From Lachnospiraceae bacterium (GTDB taxonomy: Bacteria > Bacillota > Clostridia > Lachnospirales > Lachnospiraceae), in contig JAUNDD010000015.1 in NCBI GenBank assembly GCA_030526245.1, forward strand, positions 1 through 43,839: DNA of 43,839 nt, read 5' to 3'. The notes below the pieces were generated by a model that made no database searches, was not told where the DNA came from, and saw only the letters and a program-made list of their open reading frames with translations. Shown here piece by piece: positions 10,445 through 39,057 of the stretch (the stretch's first letter is position 1; every line of letters starts with the position of its first letter). Made by a program: the position numbers and the translations under genes.

Positions 10445-11242
10445 TCAGATCTCGATGGAGCCTGCCTCAAATACGGGGCCCTCGGTGCAGATTCTGGCAT
10501 TATCCACCTGCGAGTGTGCATCCTTTTCACTGGTCCTGCAGACACAGGACAGGCAGGCACCGATACCACAGGCCATTTTTTCCTCCAGCGACAGCCAGCA
10601 CTCGATCTGTCGCTCCGCCGCGTAGGCCTTGATGGCACGCAGCATGGGCATGGGACCGCAGGCAAAGATCACTTCTGCCTCAATCTGCTGCTCGCGCATG
10701 CAATCCAGTACATTGCCCTTCGTTCCGACGCTTCCGTCCTCGGAAGCCACCTTCAGCTGTGCCGCTTTTTCAAAGGCCTCACCCAGGAAGGTATCCGCAT
10801 TTCGGTAACCCAGCACAGCGGTCACTGCTGCCGGCGTTGCCTCTCCCTCCAGAGCCTGCAGGGATTTTGCCAGCTGCAGCATCGGCGGAACACCAATACC
10901 GCCGCCCATCAAAACAGCCTTTTTGCCGGCAGCCCGCTCCAGCGGGAAACCGTTGCCCAGCGGTCCGGTCACACGAACACTGTCCCCGGCCTTCAGCTGT
11001 GAAAACTCATGGGTTCCCCAGCCGGCCACGCGGTATACCAGACGCAGGCTGTCCTCTCCCACCTCACAGATACTGATGGGTCTGGGCAGCAGATGACTGG
11101 TGTCCTGACAATACAGTGAAACAAACTGTCCCGGTCTGGCCGCTCCGGCAATATTTTCTGTCTTCAGCCACAGGCTGTAGATCCCTTCGGACAGACATTC
11201 CTGGGAGATCACCTGGGCTGTTTCATTCCATTTTTCTCTCAT
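10445..11242 (-). CDS. pyrK: Dihydroorotate dehydrogenase electron-transfer subunit
   Basis: PyrK passes electrons from PyrD to NAD through FAD and a [2Fe-2S] cluster. The 265-residue protein shows RPISICEV (54-61) for FAD binding, GPLGNGFPLE, the NAD-site loop MGGGIGVPPML (112-122), and cluster ligands Cys225, Cys230, Cys233 and Cys252 in the pattern CGIGACLSCVC plus a downstream Cys. The ATG at 11240-11242 has GGAG five bases upstream and follows the pyrF stop by 16 bp. Its pairing with pyrD shows that this organism couples pyrimidine synthesis to NAD reduction. Confidence 0.96.
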   Translation of the reverse strand: MREKWNETAQVISQECLSEGIYSLWLKTENIAGAARPGQFVSLYCQDTSHLLPRPISICEVGEDSLRLVYRVAGWGTHEFSQLKAGDSVRVTGPLGNGFPLERAAGKKAVLMGGGIGVPPMLQLAKSLQALEGEATPAAVTAVLGYRNADTFLGEAFEKAAQLKVASEDGSVGTKGNVLDCMREQQIEAEVIFACGPMPMLRAIKAYAAERQIECWLSLEEKMACGIGACLSCVCRTSEKDAHSQVDNARICTEGPVFEAGSIEI

Positions 11243-11258
11243 ATATTCTCCATTATCC

Positions 11259-12185
11259 TTATTTCGAGCTCAGTGCGTTCTGGATATCTTCTCTCATGGC
11301 GATGACGGCCGCACGGGATGCCTCTGCAAAGTTTGCCTCGCCATACTGTGCGTATGCCTCCTGCTTCCAGGCTGCAATGATTCCGCGAGAGCTGTTGACG
11401 ATCGCACCCAGACCATCCTCATTGAAGAAGGCCTTCAGGTCTTCACCCTTACCGCCCTGGGCACCGTAGCCCGGCACCAGGATATAGGTATGGGGCATCA
11501 GCTTTCTTAAGGCAGCGCCCATCTCCGGATAGGTGGCACCAACTACAGCACCTACATTGCTGTATGCACCGTCCATGCAGGTGCTTCCCCATTCTTCCAC
11601 TTTTTCACCCACATGCTCATACAGCGGTCTTCCGTCGATCAGACGATCCTGGAATTCACCACTGGACGGATTGGAGGTCTTGACCAGTACGAAGATACCC
11701 TTATCCTCTTCACGACATACCTTCAGGAACGGCTCTACACCGTCAGTTCCTAGATACGGGTTCACCGTCGCAAAATCCTCGGCGAACGGAGCGTAGGTAT
11801 TGGATCCGATCTGGATGGTTCCCAGATGTCCTACCGCATAGGCTGCGGAGGTGGAACCAATGTCACCGCGCTTGATATCTCCAAGCACCAGCAGCCCCTT
11901 TTCGCGGCAGTAATCCACGGTCTTCTTATACACGATCAGTCCCGGAATACCCAGCTGCTCGTACATGGCGATCTGAGGCTTTACACAGGGAATGAGATCA
12001 TACACCGAGTCAACGATTGCCTTGTTAAACTGCCAGAATGCTTCTGCCGCACCTTCCAGTGTCTCGCCGAACTCAGCGAAGGCCTTTGCTTTCAGCTGCT
12101 CCGGGATCATAGCCATGGTCGGGTCAAGGCCTACCACGATGGGAGCATTGGTCTTCTGGATCTTCTCAATCAACTTGCTGATCAT
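11259..12185 (-). CDS. pyrF: Orotidine 5'-phosphate decarboxylase, type 2
   Basis: PyrF decarboxylates OMP to UMP, the last step of the pathway. The 308-residue length and motifs IVVGLDPT near the N-terminus and LGDIKRGDIGSTSAAYA fit the longer type 2 family. The frame is open to 12212, but the ATG at 12183-12185 (MISKLIEKIQKT) is chosen because AGGAGG lies nine bases upstream. It heads the pyr operon. In the upstream 293 bp I did not recognise a PyrR-binding loop or a clear promoter with both boxes. Confidence 0.95.
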   Translation of the reverse strand: MISKLIEKIQKTNAPIVVGLDPTMAMIPEQLKAKAFAEFGETLEGAAEAFWQFNKAIVDSVYDLIPCVKPQIAMYEQLGIPGLIVYKKTVDYCREKGLLVLGDIKRGDIGSTSAAYAVGHLGTIQIGSNTYAPFAEDFATVNPYLGTDGVEPFLKVCREEDKGIFVLVKTSNPSSGEFQDRLIDGRPLYEHVGEKVEEWGSTCMDGAYSNVGAVVGATYPEMGAALRKLMPHTYILVPGYGAQGGKGEDLKAFFNEDGLGAIVNSSRGIIAAWKQEAYAQYGEANFAEASRAAVIAMREDIQNALSSK

Positions 12186-24971: not shown

Positions 24972-25205
24972 TTAGTTGTTCAGCATGAATGCGATCAGTC
25001 TGTCGATATCTTCCTTCTCGGAAGCAACGATCTCCAGCTCCGGAATGGTGCCGTTAGAGAAAACGTTAGCCAGCGCAACATACTGAGTCAGCTTGGACTT
25101 CAGGTTCAGACGGTCTCCCTCGCCGGTGATCAGCTCAACACGACCGGTGCACTTGCTTACTACGTTGAAAAATCCTTCGATGTCCTTAATGTTATTTACC
25201 TTCAT
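24972..25205 (-). CDS. Conserved 77-residue protein of unknown function upstream of dnaE
   Basis: A small cytoplasmic protein (MKVNNIKDIEGFFNVVSKCT at its start, then GRVELITGEGDRLNLKSKLT). It has its own consensus promoter (25255-25283) and terminator, and AAGGAG seven bases before the ATG at 25203-25205; the frame is open to 25283 but without a better start. I recall near-identical small proteins in Lachnospiraceae that databases sometimes label polyA polymerase, which the sequence does not support. Central residues LTQYVALANVF look amphipathic. No function can be assigned. Confidence 0.85.
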   Translation of the reverse strand: MKVNNIKDIEGFFNVVSKCTGRVELITGEGDRLNLKSKLTQYVALANVFSNGTIPELEIVASEKEDIDRLIAFMLNN

Positions 25206-25254
25206 TGTTCTTCTCCTTATTAACTTTCCTAACCCATTTCCTTTGTACGCCCCT

Positions 25255-25283
25255 AATATAGAGCCGTTTTTCCGAGAATGCAA
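25255..25283 (-). promoter_or_regulatory. Promoter of the 77-residue gene
   Basis: On minus, TTGCAT (25278-25283) and TATATT (25255-25260) are 17 bases apart, about 43 bases before the start codon. Confidence 0.75.
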
Positions 25284-25374: not shown

Positions 25375-27624
25375 TCATTTCTTTTTTGCGCTCTTGACCG
25401 TGATCTTGATGGTTGCTTTCCTGCCGCTTCCATCCAGCGCTCTGGCTGTAATGGTCACCTTGCCGGCCTTCACGCCCTTCACCTTACCGGAAGAAGAAAC
25501 GGTAGCCACCTTCGGGTTCGAAGAGGTCCAGCGAACCTTCGTATTGGCCTTGCCGTTCTTTGTGGTGACCCTGGCAGTCAGCTTCACGGTCTTGCCAGCC
25601 TTTACGGTCTTGCTGCCGGAAATGGATACCTTTGTCACCTGACCCTTCATGATCTTGATGGTGATGGAGGCCTTCTTGTTGCCATAACCCGTAGCGGTGA
25701 TGGTCACTTTCTTGCCGGCCCCTGCCTTCTTTGTGGTAACCAGACCCTTGTCATTAACGGTTGCATATTTCGTGTTGCTGCTCGTCCACTTCACACCCTT
25801 GGCTGCCAGTGCAGACGGCGTGATGTTGGCTGTCAGCTGCACCTTTTTGCCTGCTGCAATGGAGGTGGAGGTAACTGCCTTAACGGAGATCGTCTTGATC
25901 TGCGGCGCCGGCTGCGGTACCGGCTTCTCCTCCGGCTGTGCAGGTTGAGACGGTACTTTGTCAATCAGAATTGTGCCGTTTTCCTTGCTCACCGTCAGCT
26001 GATATTCCTCCCAGCTGCCGGTCTGTGCATTGTGGAAGGAGACCGTCTTCGCCGCTTCCAGATAATCATAGGCCAGGGCGCCGCCGGTCACATTGCCCCG
26101 GAAGCTCAGGGTGATCTTTCCATCCGCCGCCGGAACCACCTGTGCACCCTCGGCCGAAGCCTCGGCTCTGGTTCCGATCACAGCCTGGTCAAATCCCTCC
26201 AACGTCAGGATCACCTTTTCCTGGTAATTATTGGAGTTAATACCGGCCACCGTATTCAGCTGTGCCTTGGTCACCGGCAAATCCACGGTATGATTGGTCA
26301 CCGCCAGCTCTCTGGTCATATCCAGATCGCCGGTCACCAGGGTCTTCGCCTGTACATCCACCATGATCTGCCGCGGATAGAAGGCGCGTCCCAGAGAATT
26401 CTGACCATTCAGATAATTTCCGTAGTAAGTATTGGAGATCGCCACCAGCGGAACCAGACTGCCGTCCAGCTGTCCCTCCTCCATCGGGATCTTAAATTCA
26501 TACTTACCCTCTGCATTCAGGGCGCCGTGGATCCAGCTGTCATTTCCCTTGTCCTTGCTTCCGTCGCCGTTGGCCACAGCCGCTTCGAAGGTTCCCTTAT
26601 ACAGTTCCCGGTAGCCCGCCGAATTCAGCGCCATCACCAGCCAGGTCTGTCCTTCTTCATTAACCAGCCGGGCGCTGACAGCCTTAAACATGGTCGTCTT
26701 GTTGGTGATGGTCAGCTCCACTGCTGCAGCCGCCTGGGGTTCCTCGATGGTGGTGGTCAGGGAATAGGCGATCTCCGTTCCCATGGAAGAGGACTTGGCC
26801 GCCAGATAAAAGGTGCTGTTCAGATCGATGGGCACCCCGGCGAACTCACAGTTGCCGCTGGTATTGGTCTTATCGTAGGTCTGACCATTCACGCGGATGG
26901 AGCTGTAGGAGGTGCTCTCCACCTTGATCACAGCCGTAGCCTTGCCGCCGCTTACGGTCACCTCGGATACGCTCCATGCCTTGTCACGGCTGGATGTACT
27001 CTTGCCCTTGCTGTATTTGGAGCTGAGGGCCGGTGTCGTGGACACATTGTAGGTACCGTCCGCCAGGGTCGTGGAGTTATCCACCGGCTTCAGTACTTCC
27101 AGTCCCCAGACGGCCGTCTCCAGAACACGGCCATAGGGCTGAGAGGTGTTCAGATTCGGAGACGTTTCCTCATCCAGCGCCGCCTGCTCCTGAGCGGTCA
27201 GCGCCTCATAAGCCGCCTGTGCCTCCCTGATCTGAGCGCTTTTTTCTTCCGTCACCTCTGTCAGGACCGGCAGGGCCTCGATCAGTGCCTTCACTTCATC
27301 CACCGTCTTCACGGCCGACTCACCCTCATCCAGCAGCTCTGCCATATCTACAGCCGACTCCGTCTCATCCACCAGCAGTTCTTCCTCACCGATCTCCTCA
27401 AACAGATCATCGGCATCCGCCGGCTCCTCGGCCGCCAGATCCAGAAGCTCCGCCATCTCTTCTTCCCCCGGCACTTCTTCCTCCAGGCTCACAACCTCTT
27501 CCCGGGCATCCTCTGCCCAGTCACTGACCACGATCTCCTCAGCCATCACCGGAACCGGTGCAGCAACTGAAGTCGCCAGCATCGACAATGCAAGCAGCAT
27601 TGCCACTACTTTTCTGCGTTTCAT
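25375..27624 (-). CDS. Secreted modular surface protein 2 of the corrinoid operon, with two Big_2 domains
   Basis: A 749-residue protein with a signal peptide (1-28, MKRRKVVAMLLALSMLATSV then AAPVPVMAEE), an acidic region (30-105), a helical segment (106-155), SQPYGRVLETAVWGLEVL (161-178), then two beta-rich domains: type A (about 190-293, ending in IDLNSTFYLAAKSSSMGTEI and AYSL) and type B (about 304-435, MFKAVSARLV, LNSAGYRELYKGTFEAAV, FYPRQIMVD). A third beta-rich stretch (436-565) and two Lys-rich Big_2 Ig-like domains (about 585-667 and 668-749, with KWTSSNTKYATVNDKGLVTT and RWTSSNPKVATVSSSGKVKG) follow. Types A and B recur in the 1153-residue protein at the head of the operon. There is no sortase motif; the basic C-terminus may bind the wall. 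The ATG has AAAGGAG five bases upstream. I infer a surface ligand-binding role in corrinoid capture; this is untested. Confidence 0.88.
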   Translation of the reverse strand: MKRRKVVAMLLALSMLATSVAAPVPVMAEEIVVSDWAEDAREEVVSLEEEVPGEEEMAELLDLAAEEPADADDLFEEIGEEELLVDETESAVDMAELLDEGESAVKTVDEVKALIEALPVLTEVTEEKSAQIREAQAAYEALTAQEQAALDEETSPNLNTSQPYGRVLETAVWGLEVLKPVDNSTTLADGTYNVSTTPALSSKYSKGKSTSSRDKAWSVSEVTVSGGKATAVIKVESTSYSSIRVNGQTYDKTNTSGNCEFAGVPIDLNSTFYLAAKSSSMGTEIAYSLTTTIEEPQAAAAVELTITNKTTMFKAVSARLVNEEGQTWLVMALNSAGYRELYKGTFEAAVANGDGSKDKGNDSWIHGALNAEGKYEFKIPMEEGQLDGSLVPLVAISNTYYGNYLNGQNSLGRAFYPRQIMVDVQAKTLVTGDLDMTRELAVTNHTVDLPVTKAQLNTVAGINSNNYQEKVILTLEGFDQAVIGTRAEASAEGAQVVPAADGKITLSFRGNVTGGALAYDYLEAAKTVSFHNAQTGSWEEYQLTVSKENGTILIDKVPSQPAQPEEKPVPQPAPQIKTISVKAVTSTSIAAGKKVQLTANITPSALAAKGVKWTSSNTKYATVNDKGLVTTKKAGAGKKVTITATGYGNKKASITIKIMKGQVTKVSISGSKTVKAGKTVKLTARVTTKNGKANTKVRWTSSNPKVATVSSSGKVKGVKAGKVTITARALDGSGRKATIKITVKSAKKK

Positions 27625-27770
27625 GTGTACTCCTTTCGCAGTTCCTGCTCAACCCGCACTTGAGGCAGTCCTCATCGGTCGATACCGGATCACTCCATTT
27701 TTCCCGGCATCGCCGCAACTATTTGGTTACATCTATATCCAGATCGCTGGCATACGATCAGACATACTTT

Positions 27771-28871
27771 TTAAATTTCCAGCTTTCCGTCCTTCCGGGC
27801 CTGATCCACCAGCTGCTTCAGTCCTGCATTCATACTTCCGATGGGTGTTCCCGCATAGATCACCCGGCTGCAGGCCTTCATCTTCTCCAGCGCTTCCCGG
27901 ATCTTCTCCTCTGAAATGGGCTCAAAGAGTTTTTCCTCGATCACCTCACTGGCCAGATGTCTGGCCAGATGATGATCCAGATCATTGGACCAGAGGATAC
28001 CGGTCACAAAGGCCTGTCCGGCCTTCTGCAGCTTCCGATAGACGGGAATGCCACAGCCGCCGCCGGCGATCACAAAGACCTTCTCCTCCGACTCGGGCCG
28101 GGGCAGCTCGATACTGCCGAAGGTGGGATCAAAGAAGCCGTTATCGATCTCATACAGCTCCCGGATCGTCGGCTCATCGAAGACCTCCTCCGGCCGACCG
28201 TAGCGGGCGATATGATCGCCCTTGACGCAGCAGATCTTATCCGAGATCTTCATAGCCAGGTCGATCTCATGCAGCGACATGATGACGGTGATTCCCTTCT
28301 CCTTGGCCATTTTTTTCAGGATCGACAGCAGCTCCAGCTTGTAGCGCACATCCAGAAAGGAGGTGGGCTCATCCAGCAGGATGATATCCGGCTCCTGACA
28401 AATGGCCCGAGCCAGCAGCACACGCTGCCGCTGGCCGTCGCTGATGGCGTTGAAATCCCGGGTGCCCAGCTCCTCGGCATGCACCGCCCGGATGGCCTCA
28501 TCCACCTTCTGCTCATCGTTTAGTGTCAGTCGGCCCAGTCGGCCGGTATAGGGATAACGGCCAGTAGCGATAACATCATGACAGGTCATCAGCTCCGGCT
28601 GCATCTTCTCGGTCAGCACCACCGCCATCCGGGATGAAAGCTCCTTGAAGGAATGCTTCAGGATATCCCTGTCCTCCAGAATGACCTCGCCTTCAATTCT
28701 GGCCAGCTGACGGCTGATGCTTTTAAGGATCGTTGATTTACCGGCTCCGTTGGGGCCGATGAGGGTAACGATCTCACCCTTGCGGACATTGATGTTGATG
28801 TCCTTTATGATCGACCGGCCGTTGTAGCCCACACTGAGCTGCTTCAGCCGGAAATAATATTCCTGTTTCAT
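27771..28871 (-). CDS. ABC transporter ATPase, FecE/BtuD type, with an extra C-terminal domain
   Basis: A 366-residue ATPase that powers the adjacent FecCD-type permease. Walker A GPNGAGKS (39-46), signature SDGQRQR (144-150, a variant of LSGGQ), Walker B IILLDEPT (163-170) and the switch His201 are all present. Residues from about 263 form an additional domain of about 100 residues starting VFVIAGGGCGIPVYRKLQ, with a Gly-rich turn after a hydrophobic strand like a Rossmann fold. The ATG at 28869-28871 (MKQEYYFRLKQLSVGY) has GAGG upstream; the open frame runs 18 codons further without a ribosome binding site. Placement in a cobalamin-riboswitch operon points to corrinoid uptake rather than iron. 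Confidence 0.93.
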   Translation of the reverse strand: MKQEYYFRLKQLSVGYNGRSIIKDININVRKGEIVTLIGPNGAGKSTILKSISRQLARIEGEVILEDRDILKHSFKELSSRMAVVLTEKMQPELMTCHDVIATGRYPYTGRLGRLTLNDEQKVDEAIRAVHAEELGTRDFNAISDGQRQRVLLARAICQEPDIILLDEPTSFLDVRYKLELLSILKKMAKEKGITVIMSLHEIDLAMKISDKICCVKGDHIARYGRPEEVFDEPTIRELYEIDNGFFDPTFGSIELPRPESEEKVFVIAGGGCGIPVYRKLQKAGQAFVTGILWSNDLDHHLARHLASEVIEEKLFEPISEEKIREALEKMKACSRVIYAGTPIGSMNAGLKQLVDQARKDGKLEI

Positions 28872-28950
28872 ACTCGCCTCATATCTGAAATCGTCCGCCT
28901 GCTTCTGTTCCCGGCTGCGCAGCATCCGTTATCTACCCACGCTGCCTGCC

Positions 28951-28982
28951 GCCTCGCGAAATCAAGCCGCCTGAACTGTAAC
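28951..28982. repeat. Truncated GTTACAG-family element end
   Basis: GCCTCGCGAAATCAAGCCGCC and CTGAACTGTAAC match one end of the 90-bp element. Its last base touches the stop codon of the permease gene (28983-28985). Confidence 0.6.
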
Positions 28983-30050
28983 CTATCTTCTGCCCTTATG
29001 CCGCCGGAACAGCATGAAAATAACGATGGGCGCACCAAACATGGAGGTCACCGTGCTTAAGGTCAGCTCCGTCGGTGCAAAGGCCATCCGTGCCACCAGG
29101 TCGCAGATCATACAGAAGACAGAGCCACCCAGAAATGTGGCCGGGATCACCACCAGCGGCTGAGCCGTACCCATGGCCGATTTGATCAGGAAGGGTACCG
29201 CAATACCCACGAAGGAGATCGGTCCGGCAAAAGCCGTCACCGTAGCGGACAGGATACTGGACAGCACGATCAGCAGGACCCGGAAGGCCTTGACGTTGAC
29301 ACCCATGCTCTGGGCATAGGCCTCTCCCAGCTGAAAGGCACCGATGGGCTTGGACATCAGAAATACCGCCAGCACCGTCAGACCGATGATAACAGCCGCA
29401 AAGTATACATTCTCCCAGCTCATGCTGGCAAAGCTGCCCTGGGTCCAGCCCCGGAGATTGACGATATCCGAATCATCGGAAAAGTTCAGAATGAAATCCG
29501 TGGCCGCATTGCAGATATAACCCACCATGACACCTGCCACCAGCAGGGCAGACATATTGTGGATGCGCTTGGCCGCCACCAGCACAAAGCCGGTGGTGAT
29601 CATGGATCCAAAGAATGCCGCCGTGATCAGCGACCAGGAGGTCATCTTGCCCACATACTGCACATAGTAGATCATGGTCGCAGCCACACACATCTTCGCA
29701 CCGGAGGAGATACCCAGGATAAAGGGACCCGCGATGGGGTTTTCGAAGAAGGTCTGCAGCAGGAAGCCGGACAGCGCCAGGGCTCCGCCCAGAATCGCCG
29801 CCATCAGGATCCGCGGCAGACGGATCCGCCAGATGATGTTCATATCATGCCGGTCACCCTGCCGCAGGAAGATAGCCCGGGCGATCTTCCCCAGCGGAAT
29901 ATCCACGTTTCCGGTATTGATGTTGTACACAATGATGGCACCGCATAAAAAGAGCAGTACCGCAAATACGATCGTGCAGCGCAGCTTCCGCTTCAGATTG
30001 AGCGCATGATAATCGGCGCCTCCCGCCATGTTTTGACTTAGCTTCATCAT
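28983..30050 (-). CDS. ABC transporter permease, FecCD/BtuC family
   Basis: A 355-residue polytopic membrane protein with about nine or ten hydrophobic segments and the family features IWRIRLPRILMAAILGGALA, GIAVPFLIKSA and LGGSVFCMICDLVARM (the last near the coupling region). It forms the channel for a metal-chelate or corrinoid substrate. Its ATG at 30048-30050 overlaps the stop of the binding-protein gene by the ATGA four-base overlap, so they are translationally coupled. The cobalamin riboswitch upstream of the operon points to corrinoid transport. Confidence 0.94.
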   Translation of the reverse strand: MMKLSQNMAGGADYHALNLKRKLRCTIVFAVLLFLCGAIIVYNINTGNVDIPLGKIARAIFLRQGDRHDMNIIWRIRLPRILMAAILGGALALSGFLLQTFFENPIAGPFILGISSGAKMCVAATMIYYVQYVGKMTSWSLITAAFFGSMITTGFVLVAAKRIHNMSALLVAGVMVGYICNAATDFILNFSDDSDIVNLRGWTQGSFASMSWENVYFAAVIIGLTVLAVFLMSKPIGAFQLGEAYAQSMGVNVKAFRVLLIVLSSILSATVTAFAGPISFVGIAVPFLIKSAMGTAQPLVVIPATFLGGSVFCMICDLVARMAFAPTELTLSTVTSMFGAPIVIFMLFRRHKGRR

Positions 30051-31195
30051 TCTCCCACCTTGGACAGGAACATCAGACCGCTGTGGTCCTTATCCTCCAG
30101 CATAATATTGAAGTCTGTAATCAGATGACCGACCAGTGCCGTGGACTGATACCAGGTCCGGTCGATCTGCCAGACATCCCCGTTTTGTACCGCCTTGAAC
30201 TCAGCAAACATCTCATCCCGCTCAATCAGGTCCTCCACACTGCCAAGCGTCTTTTCGATGGTCGCATTATAGACCAGGAAATCCGCATCCGCCGCCGTAT
30301 CATAGAAGGTCTCCATGTTGATGGCCACGGAAGCGCTGTTGCTCTCCGGATTCTTCAGATCCTCAAAAATATAATTGCCGCCGGCCAGCGAGATCATATT
30401 GGGAATAAAATCCTCCGTCCGGCGCACGACGATGGAGCCGTCCGTGTTCACCGAGAAAAAGGCCACGGTCCTGCCGGTATTCTGATAGGTCTCGATCTCG
30501 CTTAAGATCTGCTCCTGTTCGGCAAAGAAGGCCTCCGCCTCCGCTTCCTTATTGAGCAGCGCACCGTATACCTTGATCCACTCGATACGCCCGAAGGCCG
30601 TCAGCTCATAGCTGGACCGGTCGATAAACACCGGCATCTCCAGATCCATCAGCATTTCCATCACGTCCGGTGCATGCAGAATCATCGTGGACTCAATGCA
30701 CAGATCACAGACCCGGTCCACCATCATCTCATAATCCGGTGCACTGTATTTGCCGGCATAGATCATCCGGCCCTCTTCCATGGCCTTTTTCGGTGCTTCA
30801 ATATGCCAGCTGCCGATGTCCGTACCGCTCATGGTCACCGTGTCCATGGCATCCAGCGCATCGAAGAAGGACATTACCGAGGAGGCGGCCATGTAGATCT
30901 CCTTCAGATCCTGGTAAATGACCTGGGTATCCTCAAAGGGCAGCTCCTCCGGTTCCTCTCCATCCGCCGGCACCACCAGATAGGTACCGCTTTGGGGGAT
31001 GTCGATGAACTTGTAGCCGCCTTCATAATAGTAGACCTCAAAGCCCTGGGCATATTCCAGCTCCATGGCATGGTCATAGGTCAGCCCGGCGATCTCGGGA
31101 GCCTGACCGGCCTCCTCCCGGGCTGCCGCGCTCAGTCCGCCCGCCATCGTTGCCAGCACAGCCGCTGCCAGCAGCTTCATCATTCTTCTCTTCAT
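30047..31195 (-). CDS. ABC transporter substrate-binding protein, FecB/BtuF type, without lipobox
   Basis: A 382-residue secreted protein. The signal peptide MKRRMMKLLAAAVLATMAGG ends in LSAAAREE and contains no cysteine, so it cannot be lipidated as Gram-positive binding proteins usually are. A short N-terminal beta segment (about 33-77, ELEYAQGFEVYYYEGGYKF and TYLVVP) precedes a class III periplasmic-binding fold with lobes joined by a long helix (about 185-235). KEIYMAASSVMSFFDALDAM and AGKYSAPDYEMMVDRVCDLC lie in the N-lobe. The ATG at 31193-31195 has AAGGG nine bases upstream. The riboswitch implies corrinoid as ligand; heme or siderophore is the alternative. Confidence 0.9.
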   Translation of the reverse strand: MKRRMMKLLAAAVLATMAGGLSAAAREEAGQAPEIAGLTYDHAMELEYAQGFEVYYYEGGYKFIDIPQSGTYLVVPADGEEPEELPFEDTQVIYQDLKEIYMAASSVMSFFDALDAMDTVTMSGTDIGSWHIEAPKKAMEEGRMIYAGKYSAPDYEMMVDRVCDLCIESTMILHAPDVMEMLMDLEMPVFIDRSSYELTAFGRIEWIKVYGALLNKEAEAEAFFAEQEQILSEIETYQNTGRTVAFFSVNTDGSIVVRRTEDFIPNMISLAGGNYIFEDLKNPESNSASVAINMETFYDTAADADFLVYNATIEKTLGSVEDLIERDEMFAEFKAVQNGDVWQIDRTWYQSTALVGHLITDFNIMLEDKDHSGLMFLSKVGE

Positions 31196-31278
31196 ACTTT
31201 CATGCCCTTCCGTCTGTATTTCCAATAGTGGTTCAGGTGTCAAAAACAGTATTGCGGATCGTTTCGTGCCTCGCAATC

Positions 31279-34200
31279 TCACGATTCCGCCGGTCTCACC
31301 AGCAGACCGTACACCAGTCTCCAGTCTTCGACTGCCCGTTCGTCCTCTTCCTCACCGCTGCGGTCAAAGAAGGTCGCAGTCTCCAGCTGACAGGCCCGGC
31401 TGGTCAGCTTCCGATACAGCTTTTCCGCCTCTTCCCAGCCTTCTCCCTCTTCCGGGATCAGCGCTGCACTCTCGATGATCAGATCCGTCCGTCCGGAGAT
31501 CATCTTTTTCAGCTTCCAGTTATCATAGCTTCCAAAAAACTCTACCGGCGCATCGCCCGCATAATCCTTTGCCATTCTCTCCCGAATCGTTTCCGGCAAC
31601 TCATCCTCTTCCGTCAGGCCCACCGAGGCGATCCGATCTGCATCACCGTTTTCATCCATCAGCTTCAGTGCACTCTCCGAAGACACATAAACTCTGGAGA
31701 CGGGCTGCTGGATGAGTACCGCCTGCTCCTCTAAGCCCACCGGTACATCCCGGCCCTCGGAAACCACCAGATATTTGACGATCCGGCTTTGATACGCTCT
31801 TCCGATGCTTTCGTCCAACGCCGCTTCCTTCACCGGCTTCACGCCCAGATCCACCTCGATCAGTCGATAGCCATCTTCGTATTCAAAGACCTTCAGAAGC
31901 TTTGCATATTTCAATTCTATCTCACGACCGCCGCGAAGTCCCACAATGTCCGGGGCTTTCTCATCCAGCCGGTCGGTCTGGTCGCCGAGCGTCGTTTCCA
32001 GGGCTCCGCCCTCCTGCGCGTCCTGGCCAACCTGCTCCAGGATCTCCTTGTCGTTGACCCCCACATAAATGGTGTAATTGACCCAGTGGCCCTGGGACAT
32101 GGCCGTCGTGTAGGCCTGAATGGCGGTATTGGCATTCAGATTAACCGGAATGGTAAAGGTATTATTGCCCGAAACCGTCTGCCCAAGGGAAGTTACCTGG
32201 CTGAATTTGGCACTGCCGCCCACCGATGCCTTCCGCACGAAGGTGATGGTCACATAGGCCTGTCCGCCCCGGATTTCCACGCCCTGACACTGGATGGTCA
32301 CATGACCGCGGCTGCCGCCGCTCCAGCTAAAGGCATATTTTCCAACTGTCTGGGAACCGCTGCCCGGTCCGACAGACTCATTTTTATCCGGATCCTTACT
32401 TTCATCCCGATTCGTTACGCCGCTGTTATCCTGGGCCTGACTATCCCCGGATACCTTCACCAGCTGCTCCGAAGAAAGGATGATCGCCCGCTGGAACCAG
32501 ATACTGGTATAGGTATTCGTTCCGTCCCCCTGCAGCTTCCAGCGCTGCTTCGTCGATTTTGAAGCACTGGAGCTGTCATGAGACCAGGAATGCGCTGCGA
32601 TCAGAATCGGATGATCCAGACTCTGTACCGGAATGGTAAACCGGTAGGAGGAATGACTTCCGTCCTTATCCTGATAGGTGACCGGTTCTCCCCGGATCAC
32701 CCCTCTGGTCTGACCGATATTTTTAAAGCCGCCCACAGCCTCTTCCGCTTCAAAGGCCGCATTTGCCTCTCCCATATACAGGTAACGATACCCTGTTCCG
32801 GAAAGGGTCAGCTCCGCCTTCATATTTCCCTGGGAGTCCACCCGCAGAATCGCACTGACCACCCGGAACATGGACTGCCCGTTGGCCGTGGTGGTCAGAC
32901 TCTCTGCCTGATACTGGCTTCCATTGGCTGTACTCTTATTTTTGAAACGATAGGTACCGCTTCCGCCGGCCGGCTTTTTCGGTCCCAGCTTTTTGTAGAT
33001 TGCCTCCAGCCGGCTCTTATTGGTGACCCGGGCCTCCTCGTCACTTTCCAGTGCGATCAGCGCCCGCTGGGCTGCAATGATGGCGGCCCGGTCTGCTTCC
33101 CTGGGATCAGCAGGCAGGGCTGCGATCATGGCGATCACCCGATTGACCGCCGCCGATTTGTCCGCCGCCGCGCTTCCCTTTTTCTTCAGCTGCAGAGTCA
33201 GCTCCTGATCCCCCTGAAGAGTCAGCTGTCTGTCTGCCGCATCGTAGCCCGCAGCCGTCCCGCGAATCTGCAGCAGGCTGCCCCGCTTTGCAAAGTACGT
33301 GCCGGCTTTAAATGGCACCAGGGTCTCTTCCTTTGTCCCCTGCTTTATCGTAACCTGATAGGAAGCCTGTACCGGCAGTCCGCTGTCTGCATCCTCCGCC
33401 CGCAGTGTCAGGCAGTCGGCTTCCTTCATTTCAAATACATACACCTCATCCTGCACCGCCGTGTAAGTGATCCGTTCACTGGCATATCCGTCCGCCGCGA
33501 TCTCCACCGTATAGGAAGCCCCCGGCATCAGAACATAAATCCCGTCCGTCGGCTTTGTGTTGCCGCTGTTTACCAGAACCTGCACAGCTGGGATCGGTTC
33601 CTTTTTCTCATTCACTGCGCTGAAGGTCACATTCACGCTCTGCTTCTGCTCCGGCTCCTCGATGGCGCAGGTCATCTTGTAGGCGATGGAGGTAGGCATG
33701 CTCGTGGAATGTCCAATAATATAGAAGGTACTGTTCGGATCCACCGGAACCAGGAAGCTGCTGACACCGGATGCACTGTCACTCAGGCGCTGATACCGTG
33801 CGCCCCCGCACTGGATATAATCATATCCCGTGCTGTTGACCGAGATCCTCGCCGATGCATTATGCCCGGCATCTACGATCAGTTCATCCACCGTCCAGCT
33901 GCGTGGCCGGCTGGATGTGCTCTTCCCCTTATCCGATGTGCTCGATACCGCCGGCTGCGTAGCCGTGGTATAAACGCCCTGCGGCAGGGTCGTGGTCGGA
34001 TCCGGCAGCTGCAGCGAATAGAGCCCCCACTGACAGGCCTCCAGCACACGTCCGTAGGACTGACTGGTTCCCACTCCGTCCGTCAGAAGCTCCTCGCAGG
34101 AAGCCTCATCCAGCAGCTTCTGATCCGCGGCCGAAAGCTGACGATAGGCTGCCGCGACCGCCTCGATCAGACTGCGGTCCGCCTCGGTTACATTCAGGGG

Positions 34201-34740
34201 CTCGCCCTTGAGCTTTAAGATCTGCTGTTTCACACTGTCCACAGCCGAAGAAGCCTTCGGCTCCGCCTTTTCGGTGGCCGCTTCGGTCTGCTCCGTGTCC
34301 ACCGCCAGAGCTGTTTCCTCGCCGGGATGACCGCTTTCCGTTTCCACTCCAGGCACTTCACTCTCGCTCCAAGAGCTTTCTGCCTCGGTTCCGGAGGTTT
34401 CGCTCTCAGTCTGGGTGCTTTCCTCTTCGGGCTGTTTCACAGCTTCCTCTTTCACTTCACTTTGACTCTCTCCGGCTGATTCCTGCGGTGCTGCAGATTC
34501 CGCTTCCTTATTTTTGTCTTCCCCGTCTCTTGCCTTGGTTCCGGCATCTGAAGTATTCTCTGTTGCCGGCATCTCCTTCGCTTCGGCCACTTTCTCGGTT
34601 TCCGGCTTGATCTCTGTTTCCGCCGGCGCTTCCGTCCGGACCTGCGTCGTTTCTTCTGCCGGCACAGGCATCGGACTTATCGTCATTCCGCCTGCCAGCA
34701 AAAGCGCCAGCAGCCGTCTCCAATGTCCCCTCTTACTCAT
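31279..34740 (-). CDS. Secreted modular surface protein 1, first gene of the cobalamin-riboswitch operon
   Basis: A 1153-residue protein. Signal peptide 1-28; Glu/Thr/Ser-rich region 30-165; helical segment 166-222; SQSYGRVLEACQWGLYSL (227-243); type A beta domain 255-361; two carboxypeptidase-regulatory-like beta segments (368-440 and 442-520); a helical stretch 523-585; type B domain 595-762 (MFRVVSAILRV, LTLSGTGYRYLYMGEANAAF); a second type A domain 799-895 (TFTIPVNLNANTAIQAYTTA then MSQGHWVNYTIYV); and a C-terminal part (931-1153) resembling the N-lobe of the neighbouring binding protein. There is no sortase motif or membrane tail. The ATG at 34738-34740 (MSKRGHWRRLLALLL) has GGGAG six bases upstream and lies 19 bases past the riboswitch terminator. 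Inferred role: corrinoid capture at the surface. Confidence 0.88.
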   Translation of the reverse strand: MSKRGHWRRLLALLLAGGMTISPMPVPAEETTQVRTEAPAETEIKPETEKVAEAKEMPATENTSDAGTKARDGEDKNKEAESAAPQESAGESQSEVKEEAVKQPEEESTQTESETSGTEAESSWSESEVPGVETESGHPGEETALAVDTEQTEAATEKAEPKASSAVDSVKQQILKLKGEPLNVTEADRSLIEAVAAAYRQLSAADQKLLDEASCEELLTDGVGTSQSYGRVLEACQWGLYSLQLPDPTTTLPQGVYTTATQPAVSSTSDKGKSTSSRPRSWTVDELIVDAGHNASARISVNSTGYDYIQCGGARYQRLSDSASGVSSFLVPVDPNSTFYIIGHSTSMPTSIAYKMTCAIEEPEQKQSVNVTFSAVNEKKEPIPAVQVLVNSGNTKPTDGIYVLMPGASYTVEIAADGYASERITYTAVQDEVYVFEMKEADCLTLRAEDADSGLPVQASYQVTIKQGTKEETLVPFKAGTYFAKRGSLLQIRGTAAGYDAADRQLTLQGDQELTLQLKKKGSAAADKSAAVNRVIAMIAALPADPREADRAAIIAAQRALIALESDEEARVTNKSRLEAIYKKLGPKKPAGGSGTYRFKNKSTANGSQYQAESLTTTANGQSMFRVVSAILRVDSQGNMKAELTLSGTGYRYLYMGEANAAFEAEEAVGGFKNIGQTRGVIRGEPVTYQDKDGSHSSYRFTIPVQSLDHPILIAAHSWSHDSSSASKSTKQRWKLQGDGTNTYTSIWFQRAIILSSEQLVKVSGDSQAQDNSGVTNRDESKDPDKNESVGPGSGSQTVGKYAFSWSGGSRGHVTIQCQGVEIRGGQAYVTITFVRKASVGGSAKFSQVTSLGQTVSGNNTFTIPVNLNANTAIQAYTTAMSQGHWVNYTIYVGVNDKEILEQVGQDAQEGGALETTLGDQTDRLDEKAPDIVGLRGGREIELKYAKLLKVFEYEDGYRLIEVDLGVKPVKEAALDESIGRAYQSRIVKYLVVSEGRDVPVGLEEQAVLIQQPVSRVYVSSESALKLMDENGDADRIASVGLTEEDELPETIRERMAKDYAGDAPVEFFGSYDNWKLKKMISGRTDLIIESAALIPEEGEGWEEAEKLYRKLTSRACQLETATFFDRSGEEEDERAVEDWRLVYGLLVRPAES

Positions 34741-34759
34741 TCGCCTCTCCCTTTCAATC

Positions 34760-34796
34760 AAAAAAATCCCTACTGAAATCATTTCAGTAAGGATTC
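34760..34796 (-). terminator. Intrinsic terminator, expression platform of the cobalamin riboswitch
   Basis: On minus, AATCCTTACTGAAA, loop TGA, TTTCAGTAGGGATT and then a T run. It lies between the aptamer and the start codon of the first operon gene, so ligand-bound aptamer most likely promotes termination. Confidence 0.85.
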
Positions 34797-34892
34797 GTTC
34801 TTGATGCACACTCATTAGGCCGCCATCGCATCCGCGCGCAGCCATTTTGTTTCATCAGACATGATATCAATTACTCGTGATTTCTCTGTCCA

Positions 34893-35097
34893 CCCAACAG
34901 GTAGGTCTCCTGGCTCACAGCTTTCCATCATAAAACCACCTTCCCGGATAAAGATCCAGTGGCATTCGCATCGACCCCGGGCAGTCCTTCACCTGGTCTG
35001 CTTCGGCCGGTCGTTTCCGGTTCTATGCATTGCTGCCTACAGTGACGAGTTCGCACAGGCCTTTCACCTGTTTCCCTTGTTAACTGGCATCTGACAG
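34893..35097 (-). promoter_or_regulatory. Cobalamin riboswitch aptamer
   Basis: On minus, the upstream core AAGGGAAACAGGTGAAAGGC is followed by CTGTGCGAACTCGTCACTGT (35043-35076 region), matching the conserved B12 element blocks AGGGAA-GGTGAAA and the GC-G-CACTGTA block. The B12 box appears as GAGCCAGGAGACCTACCT (about 34899-34916). Total length is near 205 nt, usual for the class. It controls the surface protein, binding protein, permease, ATPase and second surface protein. Confidence 0.93.
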
Positions 35098-35103
35098 ATC
35101 TTA

Positions 35104-35130
35104 GTTACCGTTCACCCAACGAACTGTAAC
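35104..35130. repeat. 27-bp GTTACAG palindrome inside the riboswitch leader
   Basis: GTTACCGTTC and GAACTGTAAC enclose a 7-base loop, with one arm mismatch. It lies directly upstream of the aptamer in the transcribed leader. No flanking duplication is seen. Confidence 0.7.
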
Positions 35131-35206
35131 AACAAAACTCCCCTGCGGCGCGGAACGTGTTACGCCCTCGCCCTGTCAGTCTGCCGGCACCTGTTGTGCA
35201 TGAAAT

Positions 35207-35270
35207 CAGCTGCCGTTTCCGGCAGCTGCTCCTATTCCATTGTCAGAAAGAGGGCAGCTCCTGCCCTCTT
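35207..35270 (-). other. Two perfect hairpins in the 5' leader
   Basis: Near the predicted transcription start is a 10-bp stem AAGAGGGCAG with loop GAG (35248-35270). After it comes a 9-bp stem CAGCTGCCG closed by a GAAA tetraloop on minus (35207-35228). Neither has a T tract, so they look like structural or stabilising elements rather than terminators. Confidence 0.65.
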
Positions 35271-35281
35271 CTCTACAATAA

Positions 35282-35310
35282 AATGTAACACCAGCTTCGG
35301 TGCTTGTCAA
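35282..35310 (-). promoter_or_regulatory. Promoter of the cobalamin-riboswitch operon
   Basis: On minus, TTGACA (35305-35310) and TACATT (35282-35287) are 17 bases apart. The start would be near 35275, giving a leader of about 535 nt. The -35 box lies five bases from a truncated repeat element. Confidence 0.75.
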
Positions 35311-35421: not shown

Positions 35422-38400
35422 TTATTTCTTCACAGTCACCTTTACCTTCTGATACATCCCGTTCTGTGCAAAAACATAGATGTAGCAGGTTCCCTTTTTC
35501 TTCGCCGTGATCTTTCCGGTCTTGCTTACCGTAGCCACCGACGGATCCGAGGATTCATACCGTACACTGCGATGTTGGCTGATCTTCGTGCCGGCGGACT
35601 TCTTCACCGCCTTCCCCTTCAGCTTGAAAGTCTTTCCTTTCTTTGCCAGAGACACCTTCTTGTTCCCGGCCGCCGTGGTCACCCTGGTATAATTGCCGGC
35701 CTTGCCGCCGCTGGTACCGATGTGCAGCGTATTGGACATTCCCAGCAGTTTGCCGTTTGAACCAAAGGCACCAACCAGGTATTTATAGTAGGTTCCCTTC
35801 TTCAGACCTTTCTGCTTATAGGTACAGGTCTTTACCGTGGCGATGGGCTGATACCGGTTTGCCTTACCGCACTTTGCACCGTAGACCACATAGTAGGCAG
35901 CATCCTTTTTCGCCTTCCAGCTCAAAGAGATGGAGCTGCTCGTCACCTTTCCCTGCCTGGCCAGAAGGAACTGGAAGCTGGTCCCCGTCGGATCATTGTC
36001 CGTCTTTAAAGCCTTCACAAAACGGTCCACCTGTGCCTGGGATGCTCCGGCTGCAGCTTCTTTTATGGCAAGAGCCGGGATCACCTTCTCCGCCATCACC
36101 AGTCCGCACTTCACACAGGCCTGATGCTGTTTCCCTTCCTGGGAGTCCGTTTCCACCTGATCCACGATCCAGTCACCCCGTGTATGTGCCAGTAGACCTC
36201 CCCAGTTGAAGCTTTCGGTTCCTGTCTCCCCGCATTGACAGCTCATGTAGTACTGTGCCGGCGCACTGCAGGTGGCGATCGTTTTTCGATACGTGAGCGT
36301 CGGAAGCTGCCGGTCAAACACATGGGTGTGGAAGCCCTCCACTTTCACCTGACACGTTGTCTGCACGCCACCGGGGCCTTCTGCCAGCAGAGTCACCTCT
36401 CCGTCCTGATGTCCTGTCAAAATGACCAGCCGGTTCGATCCTGCTTTTTTCGCCACGGATACGATGGTCGGATCCGATGAGGTATAGGTGATGCAGTCAT
36501 TGATCAGCGGAGCCTGGACCGGGAAACAGATGACGCCCGCCACAATATTGTTTTTCTCCGGCTTCAGCGTGTAATCATTTTGAAAGAGGAGCTTTGTGGG
36601 ATCGACCATTTTTCCTGTGATCTGCAGATACCGAAATTCCTCTTCATGATTGTAGGGAGCTGTATCGTTACCGATTCCCTGGACCGTGCCGGGCTGTCCG
36701 AATTCATTCTTCCTGCATCCCTTAATGGTAAACCAGCCGTCTGGAAATGTCTCCCCCCAGGTATCGATGGCATCGCCGTTATACTGACACTCCGCCGTCA
36801 ACTTTGCATTTCCCATCATCGTGATATAACGGGCTGTAATGGCCGAAAGATCCTGGTTATCACTGGTCTGATACGCCTTACAGGTCAACTCCGCCTGGTC
36901 CGCCAGCGTTATGTCACCGCCATCCGTCACCTTGATACACAGCCCCTGTCGACCCGACAGCTTCACTTTCGCTGTCTCCGAGAAGTACAGGTCTGTATCG
37001 TCGGCATGGATCGCGTTGATATCACAGTTCACCTCCGCTGTCAGGCTGCCGTCTCCCAGGAAATAGCCCCGGCTGTTCTCCTTCGAAAAATAGATTCCGC
37101 TATTCATGGAGCCTTTACTGAGCACATTGTCTCCTTTAAGAACAATATTCAGTCCCTCCTCACCCACATAGATCTGAGTCGCAGCCACCTTCGTCTGAGA
37201 ATAATCCCCATTCGAATTCCTGTAATTGGTCAGCACCAGAGTGCCGCTGCCGCTGTCGCAGTAGGCGGCGTCATGTCCCGAAAAGTCATAGGCGCCGGGA
37301 CGATAATACTTCACGCTTCCTCCATCTCCCAGTACATCCAGACTGTTTTTTTCTCCAACGCGGGTAGATCCCACATACAGATCATAATACCGATCCTGCG
37401 GCATGATGTAGCTTCCCACAAAAGCGAAGGCGCCGACCTCTTCTGTGGTGTATTCGCCCGCTTTGATGCCGTTGATCATCAGGCCGCCTCCGGATGCCTT
37501 TTCCAGATACATCCCCGGCTTCGGGATCAGTGTGATCACCGGCCTGTACATTCTTCCGCTTTGAAACCGGGTGCTTCGCATATCCACAGCCTGCTGCTTG
37601 TAGAATTCCTGCCACTTGATCTGCACTGAAAACCGGTTGGATGCAACCGACAGCTCGCCCTTTTTTGCGGGAACATCCCCTGCCACCGGCCTTCGCACAT
37701 CGATGTTCAGGTCCTCAATGGTAAAGGTCGTTGAGTCACTGTTCCAGATGGGGCGGAACACCGCATTTTCTTCAATCAGTACCTGATCTCCTGGTTTATA
37801 CCGTTTATACGTTTCCCGATCGATGCAGTGCTCCCAGTATCCGCTGAACTTTCCTCCCACCGGCGCTGTAAAAGTACACTCCGGAAGCCTGTACGTTTTT
37901 CCACGTTCCACCATGGCCCCCGGCATACTGCCCGATCCTCCATTGGCAGAAAAAACCACTGCATGGTCCGAACCGCATATCCACTCAACATACGTCGGAA
38001 CGACTACCTTCGGGTCGTAAGAACAGTTTTCTTTTCTTTCAACAGCAAATTTCAGATATGGTGTCTCGGTCACATCCACAGGCCCAATTCCCTCTGACAC
38101 ATTCAGAATCTGTAAATATTCCAGTCCCTTAACGATAACCGTAGTAAGAAACTCATTGTTTGGAAGATATGCTGTATCCAGCTTTTTATTCTTTGTCAGA
38201 TCCAGTTTTACGATGGACGTATTAACCACGCCAAGATAAACCAGTTCAGTACATGCGCTAAGATCTAATTCCTTAAGGATCAGATTATTCAGCTGCAAAA
38301 TTCTAAGTGCTCTCAGATTTGTCAGATCTATTTTGCATACAAAACGGTTGCTTCGTTTGCTTCTGTCCCATTTGAAAAATGTCAGTGCCGTCAGATATTC

Positions 38401-39057
38401 TATTCCCTCCACACTGGTGATTTCTGTCTCCCCAGGCTCAAGCGTGCTATCTGCGACGATGGAAATCGACGTAATCGATGATATCTCAGCCGGGCCGAGC
38501 ACTCCATTCGCATTCGCATCATACAGCCTGATCATCCTTCGAAATTCATCATCCGGAAAATGCTCACTGTCGAGAGGTACTTCTCCATTTGCCAGCTCTT
38601 CCACCTCCAGAAGCGCCTCTTCTTCCATGGGGTCTTCGATCAGATCCATCCGATCCGCTGCTTCTGCATCCCCTTCCGTTTCAGGGAGTCCGTCCTCCCA
38701 TACAGACTCTTCAGCCCCTTCAACATACACTTCCTCAATCAGATCCGGTTCATCCTCTGCCGGAAACACGTTGTTCTCCTGTTCAACTTCGGTCCGATCC
38801 CCGTCCAGTTCCCCTTCTTCTTCCGTCAGAACTGCGCCGACCTCTGCCTCCCATCCCGGATCCGCCTCCAGGACATCGCTCCCGTTCTCCGGCTCCGGAT
38901 CCGCTAAAACAGTCCCATCATCCACAGTCCCAAACTCTTCCATCAGCACTTCATCCGTCCATGCCTCCCCGCTCACGGGTACCGAACCGGCCAGAAGGAT
39001 CCCCGACAAAAGAACCGCCAACATCCTTCGCTTTCCAACGCTGGTATACCTTTTCAT
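35422..39057 (-). CDS. Large secreted protein with EF-hand-like motif, leucine-rich repeats, beta-helix and Big_2 domain
   Basis: A 1211-residue protein. Signal peptide 1-30; a very acidic region to about 155; PDDEFRRMIRLYDANANGVL then GPAEI, an EF-hand-like calcium loop; leucine-rich repeats (about 200-335, NLRALRILQLNNLILKELDL); an InlB-like repeat (VVFSANGGSGSMPG); a right-handed beta-helix-like stretch resembling Cthe_2159-type carbohydrate-binding domains (about 650-800, GLNIVLKGDNVLSKGSMNSG, ADQAELTCKAYQ); a cysteine pair region (CQCGETG, QACVKCG); a fibronectin III-like domain; and a C-terminal Big_2 domain (YESSDPSVATVSKTGKITAK). No sortase motif. The ATG at 39055-39057 has AAGGAG upstream. 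It has its own promoter and lies upstream of the corrinoid operon on the same strand. Its ligand is unknown; attachment to mucus or plant glycan is a guess. Confidence 0.85.
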   Translation of the reverse strand: MKRYTSVGKRRMLAVLLSGILLAGSVPVSGEAWTDEVLMEEFGTVDDGTVLADPEPENGSDVLEADPGWEAEVGAVLTEEEGELDGDRTEVEQENNVFPAEDEPDLIEEVYVEGAEESVWEDGLPETEGDAEAADRMDLIEDPMEEEALLEVEELANGEVPLDSEHFPDDEFRRMIRLYDANANGVLGPAEISSITSISIVADSTLEPGETEITSVEGIEYLTALTFFKWDRSKRSNRFVCKIDLTNLRALRILQLNNLILKELDLSACTELVYLGVVNTSIVKLDLTKNKKLDTAYLPNNEFLTTVIVKGLEYLQILNVSEGIGPVDVTETPYLKFAVERKENCSYDPKVVVPTYVEWICGSDHAVVFSANGGSGSMPGAMVERGKTYRLPECTFTAPVGGKFSGYWEHCIDRETYKRYKPGDQVLIEENAVFRPIWNSDSTTFTIEDLNIDVRRPVAGDVPAKKGELSVASNRFSVQIKWQEFYKQQAVDMRSTRFQSGRMYRPVITLIPKPGMYLEKASGGGLMINGIKAGEYTTEEVGAFAFVGSYIMPQDRYYDLYVGSTRVGEKNSLDVLGDGGSVKYYRPGAYDFSGHDAAYCDSGSGTLVLTNYRNSNGDYSQTKVAATQIYVGEEGLNIVLKGDNVLSKGSMNSGIYFSKENSRGYFLGDGSLTAEVNCDINAIHADDTDLYFSETAKVKLSGRQGLCIKVTDGGDITLADQAELTCKAYQTSDNQDLSAITARYITMMGNAKLTAECQYNGDAIDTWGETFPDGWFTIKGCRKNEFGQPGTVQGIGNDTAPYNHEEEFRYLQITGKMVDPTKLLFQNDYTLKPEKNNIVAGVICFPVQAPLINDCITYTSSDPTIVSVAKKAGSNRLVILTGHQDGEVTLLAEGPGGVQTTCQVKVEGFHTHVFDRQLPTLTYRKTIATCSAPAQYYMSCQCGETGTESFNWGGLLAHTRGDWIVDQVETDSQEGKQHQACVKCGLVMAEKVIPALAIKEAAAGASQAQVDRFVKALKTDNDPTGTSFQFLLARQGKVTSSSISLSWKAKKDAAYYVVYGAKCGKANRYQPIATVKTCTYKQKGLKKGTYYKYLVGAFGSNGKLLGMSNTLHIGTSGGKAGNYTRVTTAAGNKKVSLAKKGKTFKLKGKAVKKSAGTKISQHRSVRYESSDPSVATVSKTGKITAKKKGTCYIYVFAQNGMYQKVKVTVKK

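Follow-up and report, generated by a model that had tools for sequence, protein, structure and literature searches.

The window analysed here is a stretch of 43,839 nt from a Lachnospiraceae bacterium (assembly GCA_030526245.1, contig JAUNDD010000015.1). Between positions 25375 and 35310 its minus strand carries a cobalamin riboswitch and, downstream of it, five open reading frames (ORFs), which code for a secreted protein of 1153 amino acids (aa), for BtuF-, BtuC- and BtuD-type transporter components and for a second secreted protein of 749 aa. A sequence-only reading had described this arrangement as a surface system for corrinoid capture and relay. Its observation is confirmed and its interpretation partly supported: we give about even chances to the operon serving de novo B12 synthesis as an extracellular route of cobalt supply, replacing the usual CbiMNQO importer and cytosolic CbiK chelatase.

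The riboswitch aptamer (34883–35134; this and all other features of the operon are on the minus strand) matches RF00174 with 62.9 bits at a cut-off of 31.5 (E 2.4e-13). One sigma-70-like promoter, TTGACA-17-TACATT (35282–35310), was found by a consensus scan, with 10/12 matches and a TG preceding the second hexamer; the mean for shuffled sequence was 0.4. An intrinsic terminator with a 15-pair stem and a T-run (34764–34796) lies just 5' of the ATG at 34740; terminator-like sites numbered two in the scanned stretch, compared with a shuffle mean of 0.9. A riboswitch with a terminator ahead of five minus-strand genes, as first described, is thus recovered by RF00174, the stem with its T-run and the ORFs.

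The 1153-aa protein (31279–34740) results from a signal-peptide start within a frame of 1188 codons that is open from 34845. Residues 963–1183 of this frame resemble residues 60–243 of BtuF (26%, 5.9e-9). This C-terminal half class III binding protein, similar to the BtuF N-lobe (31297–31959), was overlooked in the sequence-only reading. Downstream, the complete set of Pfam families for such an importer is present: a BtuF/FecB-type substrate-binding protein (SBP; 30047–31195, Peripla_BP_2, 8.7e-33), a BtuC/FecC-type permease (28983–30050, FecCD, 2.4e-76) and a BtuD-type ATPase (27771–28925, ABC_tran, 1.9e-30). The signal peptide of the SBP has no lipobox Cys, unlike most relatives; the same holds in loci L057 and L065. 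The alignment of the ATPase to the corrinoid-ATPase model NF007082 (26–363) takes in the C-terminal extra domain noted earlier, with 218 bits far below the cut-off of 537. The last gene (25375–27624) encodes the 749-aa protein, with an A- and a B-type domain, a further beta module and two Big_2 domains, one of which forms the C-terminus (ORF, Pfam and hidden Markov model, HMM). By sequence reading, an LPXTG sorting signal is absent from the C-termini of both large proteins.

NEAT-like domains of the secreted proteins

The two large proteins were said to share repeated beta domains, and indeed they align with 42% identity over 240 columns (2.6e-40). In the 1153-aa protein these are a first A-type domain without the signature His (33652–34002, HMM), a B-type domain (32458–32937) and a further A-type domain with the signature MSQGHWVNY (32050–32334, alignment A1 and HMM). 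The 749-aa protein has an A-type domain, again without the His (26737–27081, HMM), and a B-type domain (26365–26718). These repeated domains are remote relatives of NEAT: the B types fold as NEAT in structure comparison, and the A types are related to it in sequence. The A domain had no structural match in two structure comparisons. We call them remote because the cut-off of Pfam PF05031 (32.8 bits) is not reached. The window proteins gave no match to it at E ≤ 1, and the first members of the alignments reached 15.6 and 12.8 bits; at E ≤ 1 it matches 21 of the 41 A members, the strongest at 1.3e-6, and eight of the 18 B members, the strongest at 0.0025. Searched against PDB sequences, the B profile placed CD109 first (E 0.071) and NEAT at 0.72, and a Foldseek search with the model of the 749-aa protein gave no match at E ≤ 0.001.

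The A-type signature TTxMSxxHxxxY is common but not universal. The rows of alignment A5 (41 of 45 used) were chosen by a pattern containing MS..H, so that the conservation of these residues is partly a result of that choice; the 18 rows of alignment A1 were chosen without it. NEAT domains are known for binding metalloporphyrins, and bind heme via YxxxY. The A type carries HxxxY close to its end, in the place of the NEAT YxxxY.

Distribution among Lachnospiraceae

The search covered 299 genomes sampled from the family, approximately one per genus. With the A+B sequence of the window as first query, 58 of them matched, the window's own included, and the 57 others hold 64 homologous clusters. Of these 64, 45 (in 44 genomes) have a cobalamin riboswitch upstream in the same orientation, always within 4.3 kb, a count that omits one match under its cut-off. 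The 40 mapped loci usually show the order riboswitch, NEAT-like protein, BtuF, BtuC, BtuD, in which a gene for a secreted CbiK may follow the riboswitch; fusions join CbiK to NEAT-like domains, or NEAT-like domains to BtuF. Eleven of the 19 riboswitch-less clusters were fetched; nine have neighbours or parts that resemble BtuF or CbiK and two have none. Some operons continue into cobyric acid synthase, CbiC, CbiD, CobT, CobU or CobS, with the matches for CbiC, CobT, CobU and CobS below the cut-offs of their models. In L065 a small A-domain gene (10915–11499) is located divergently from the riboswitch operon.

A second survey addressed named genomes. Here the A profile found 483 relatives, and the best 80 of these 483, which include Coprococcus comes (itself a member of the Lachnospiraceae), Faecalicatena, Blautia, Fusicatenibacter, Hornefia and Eubacterium, were analysed. 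A riboswitch match was present in 38 of 38 genomes. Since these matches could not be assigned to loci, a B12-box pattern was used instead, which recovered 35 of 40 known riboswitches, missed five and made no extra call. Among the 68 loci that could be tested, 51 have a B12 box upstream in the same orientation, none has one on the opposite strand and 17 have no box; 12 of the 80 could not be tested. At least ten named loci come from genomes already in the 64-cluster survey, so the two surveys overlap. One domain is 100% identical between them (L061 from G232 and L073), a sign that both sample the same family. The expected co-occurrence of homologues with cobalamin riboswitches is borne out by both. 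Within the texts that it covered, a literature search found no paper joining NEAT domain, cobalamin and riboswitch, nor one on secreted CbiK within such operons.

Because the A profile finds 110 genomes, compared with 58 by the first query, it was used for all statements on distribution; a genome matching it is called a carrier (G295 on a short, weak match). CbiD, which acts in the anaerobic corrin pathway, occurs in 171 of the 299 genomes. Both A and CbiD were found in 107, A alone in three, CbiD alone in 64 and neither in 125 (Fisher 3e-31, genera being treated as independent). Judged from their gene content, 107 of 110 carriers are thus likely B12 makers. Among the 58 first-query genomes, CbiD is present in 57 and CbiC in 56. 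The SBP profile at E 1e-40 yields 110 genomes; 108 of them are carriers, and the other two, G008 and G127, have CbiD. Furthermore, of the 98 genomes listing both genes, 41 have the A gene no more than 20 kb from cbiD and on the same strand, and none has it there on the opposite strand. Genome incompleteness and profile thresholds add error to all these counts.

These figures bear directly on the corrinoid ligand, the idea we followed before CbiD and CbiM had been surveyed. According to it, NEAT-like domains would capture cobamides or cobinamide on the outer side of the wall and pass them to BtuFCD; in B12 makers, leaked or foreign corrinoid would be recovered. The cobalamin riboswitch and the BtuFCD-type importer argue for it, as do the cobyric acid synthase genes adjoining the operon in L036, L154 and L156 and the CobT, CobU and CobS matches (below cut-offs) adjoining it in L036. 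The available text of PMC4285132 also describes a riboswitch-controlled operon with corrinoid transporters in Dehalobacter. However, an importer of this kind would be expected to serve organisms that are unable to make the corrin ring, and among the 128 genomes without CbiD, which would need it most, the A domain occurs in three and the SBP (E ≤ 1e-40) in two. As these genomes hardly carry the system, corrinoid scavenging is not favoured. It also leaves the secreted cobaltochelatase and the anti-correlation with CbiM described below unexplained, and we regard it as rather improbable.

Among the 171 CbiD genomes, a cobalt-type CbiM is present in 10 of 107 carriers versus 44 of 64 non-carriers (p 5e-16). 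CbiM was separated from NikM by frame length and profile end, a split that adds error; CbiM matches that fell short of about 1e-50, namely fragments in G257 and G209 plus about twenty weak hits, were excluded. As a check, CbiD is present in 54 of 55 genomes with a cobalt-type CbiM. Kinship was considered with a tree of 120 of the 171 CbiD, from 52 non-carriers and 68 carriers, the latter including all ten with CbiM; that this gene tree stands for the kinship of genomes adds further error. This tree shows 30 changes of A, against 39 after shuffling, and 27 of CbiM; the pattern therefore does not come from a single clade. In 30 independent pairs from the best tree, a carrier without CbiM faced a non-carrier with CbiM in 16.2, and the reverse was true in 1.5 (median p 5e-4 over 300 random pair choices).

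Secreted CbiK and the possible cargo

The second cobalamin riboswitch of the window's genome precedes a secreted CbiK-type cobaltochelatase (L001:113-1264, G000:C11), the single CbiK hit there (PF06180, 4.7e-71). CbiK was surveyed in 290 genomes (taken as G000–G289), 104 of them carriers, of which 65 have one hit and 35 more than one. N-termini were inspected by a script heuristic in 33 of the 65 single-CbiK carriers, and 31 bear a lipoprotein or other signal peptide; the choice was not random, as 19 of the inspected proteins come from or lie beside fetched operons or belong to the window's genome and 12 come from long frames. All 31 retain the motifs GHG, VE and GDHA (GHG and GDHA aligned with 1qgo). 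The GHG and GDHA motifs surround the two active-site histidines, given for Salmonella CbiK as His145 and His207 in the part of PMC7689651 that was available. By PF06180 and these motifs the secreted CbiK is a predicted class II cobaltochelatase. Among the matches listed, the median CbiK frame is 412 aa in carriers without CbiM versus 288 aa in non-carriers with CbiM. In three carriers that are 99–100% complete, searches for CbiK and CbiX yielded only the secreted CbiK. Five more CbiK read in genomes with CbiM (G203, G237, G284, G027, G058) are of the cytosolic type. Three of them share a contig with CbiM, and one is a fusion, in which a single open frame joins a CbiO-type ATPase to CbiK (L301, G237:C29). 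Two modules thus seem to replace each other, one consisting of CbiMNQO and a cytosolic CbiK, the other of a secreted CbiK, NEAT-like proteins and an importer of the BtuFCD type.

The favoured cobalt-supply route would work as follows. At low corrinoid the terminator would be bypassed, and the surface NEAT-like proteins, the BtuF-like receptor and the BtuCD-like importer would be made. Cobalt would be gathered outside the wall by the NEAT-like domains and by the secreted chelatase, whose gene lies elsewhere in the genome behind a cobalamin riboswitch of its own, and these domains together with the half-SBP tail of the 1153-aa protein would pass the cargo to BtuF and BtuCD. As a speculation, the tail might attach to BtuC or form a pair with BtuF. 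Given the combination of a NEAT-like fold, a tetrapyrrole chelatase on the outside and an importer of the heme/B12 class, the most likely cargo is a tetrapyrrole loaded with cobalt by extracellular CbiK. More specifically, and tentatively, a metal-free tetrapyrrole of the sirohydrochlorin type may act as cobaltophore: lipoprotein CbiK would insert cobalt into the exported compound at the surface, the NEAT-like domains would relay the product through the wall, and the BtuFCD-type importer would return it to CbiL and later corrin enzymes.

Less likely, the cargo is Co(II) or a small cobalt chelate. That the operon works without any tetrapyrrole, with cobalt bound by the conserved Met, His and Tyr of the A domain and by secreted CbiK and then imported by BtuFCD, we consider quite unlikely. 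NEAT domains bind metalloporphyrins, and the three near-complete carriers show no second, internal CbiK or CbiX, although Met8- or CysG-type enzymes could serve instead. The distribution evidence is identical for both cargoes. Moreover, the accessible text of PMC7689651 reports that CbtJKL of Sinorhizobium, with a BtuF-like SBP, moves Co(II), and that CbiK takes Co(II) for insertion. Acquisition of heme or another porphyrin, placed under a cobalamin riboswitch by coincidence, would agree with the NEAT fold and with heme-binding FetB (9b86) as best PDB relative of the secreted CbiK; the riboswitch linkage in 45 of 64 clusters and the linkage to cbi genes make it highly improbable.

Several observations weigh against a cobalt-supply route. 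For a metal-free tetrapyrrole, no exporter is known here. Ten carriers hold CbiM too, and 20 CbiD genomes have neither the A system nor CbiM. NikM-type transporters, which might carry cobalt as well, occur in 24 of 107 carriers and 6 of 64 non-carriers with CbiD; the cobalt importers NiCoT, CorA and CbtAB lay outside the survey. On strongly supported branches only 10 pairs were available (5.9 versus 1.3, p 0.125; from an earlier tree containing four rows in a wrong reading frame), so the support from the tree is moderate. Four surveyed carriers have no CbiK hit, and one of these four is a 94% complete genome of the window's genus (G142) with the NEAT-like operon and CbiD. Two single-CbiK carriers (G186, G203) have a cytosolic type, and the signal-peptide count leaves the other 32 of the 65 outside. 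The chelatase search covered CbiK and, in three genomes, CbiX, with Met8, CysG and HemH types beyond its scope. Finally, the window's own genome, which gave no CbiM hit, is 60% complete.

Many gut Lachnospiraceae are B12 makers, and the cobalt source of those without CbiMNQO is at issue; for many of these the sole CbiK hit bears a signal peptide. If a cobalt-supply route is correct, a NEAT-like fold serves cobalt, not heme; many gut genomes then have importers whose annotation as B12 transporters is wrong, and models of B12 sharing that count these genes as salvage need correction.

Known systems and neighbouring genes

The NEAT/Isd heme relay (IsdX1, IsdX2, Hbp2, IsdH/B) has in common with the operon the NEAT fold, here in the B domains, the repetition of domains at the surface and a class III SBP with a FecCD-type importer. 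It differs by iron control in place of the cobalamin riboswitch and by YxxxY; the operon proteins, furthermore, have no C-terminal LPXTG and are linked to cbi genes and CbiK. Corrinoid importers of the BtuFCD kind have the same types of SBP, permease and ATPase and, by sequence, the riboswitch, whereas the present system accompanies CbiD and adds NEAT-like proteins, the half-SBP tail and secreted CbiK. CbiMNQO with cytosolic CbiK, as in the fusion of L301, would equally supply cobalt for de novo synthesis. It can be under riboswitch control, as the available text of PMC4285132 describes for Dehalobacter CbiMNQ, but is an energy-coupling factor transporter with a cytosolic chelatase, nearly complementary in distribution. 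CbtJKL, compared by description only, is similar as a cobalt importer with a BtuF-like SBP, and the part of PMC7689651 at hand mentions neither NEAT-like proteins nor a secreted chelatase for it. Transcobalamin-like SLBB proteins, proposed for surface B12 binding in Gram-positive bacteria and usually found where key B12 biosynthesis enzymes are missing (PMC1796856, as far as its text was accessible), have a beta-grasp fold; the window proteins gave no such Pfam match. Among CbiK-fold relatives, CbiK 2xvx and FetB 9b86 are presumably extracytoplasmic like the secreted CbiK, which in contrast adjoins cobalamin riboswitches and is fused to NEAT-like domains in some genomes.

Outside the operon, a small ORF of 103 aa (24972–25283) appears HPr-like by eye, with no Pfam match at E ≤ 1. 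Upstream of the riboswitch, 35422–39057 encodes a secreted modular protein of 1211 aa with Big_2 and weak fn3, EF-hand and LRR-like Pfam matches.

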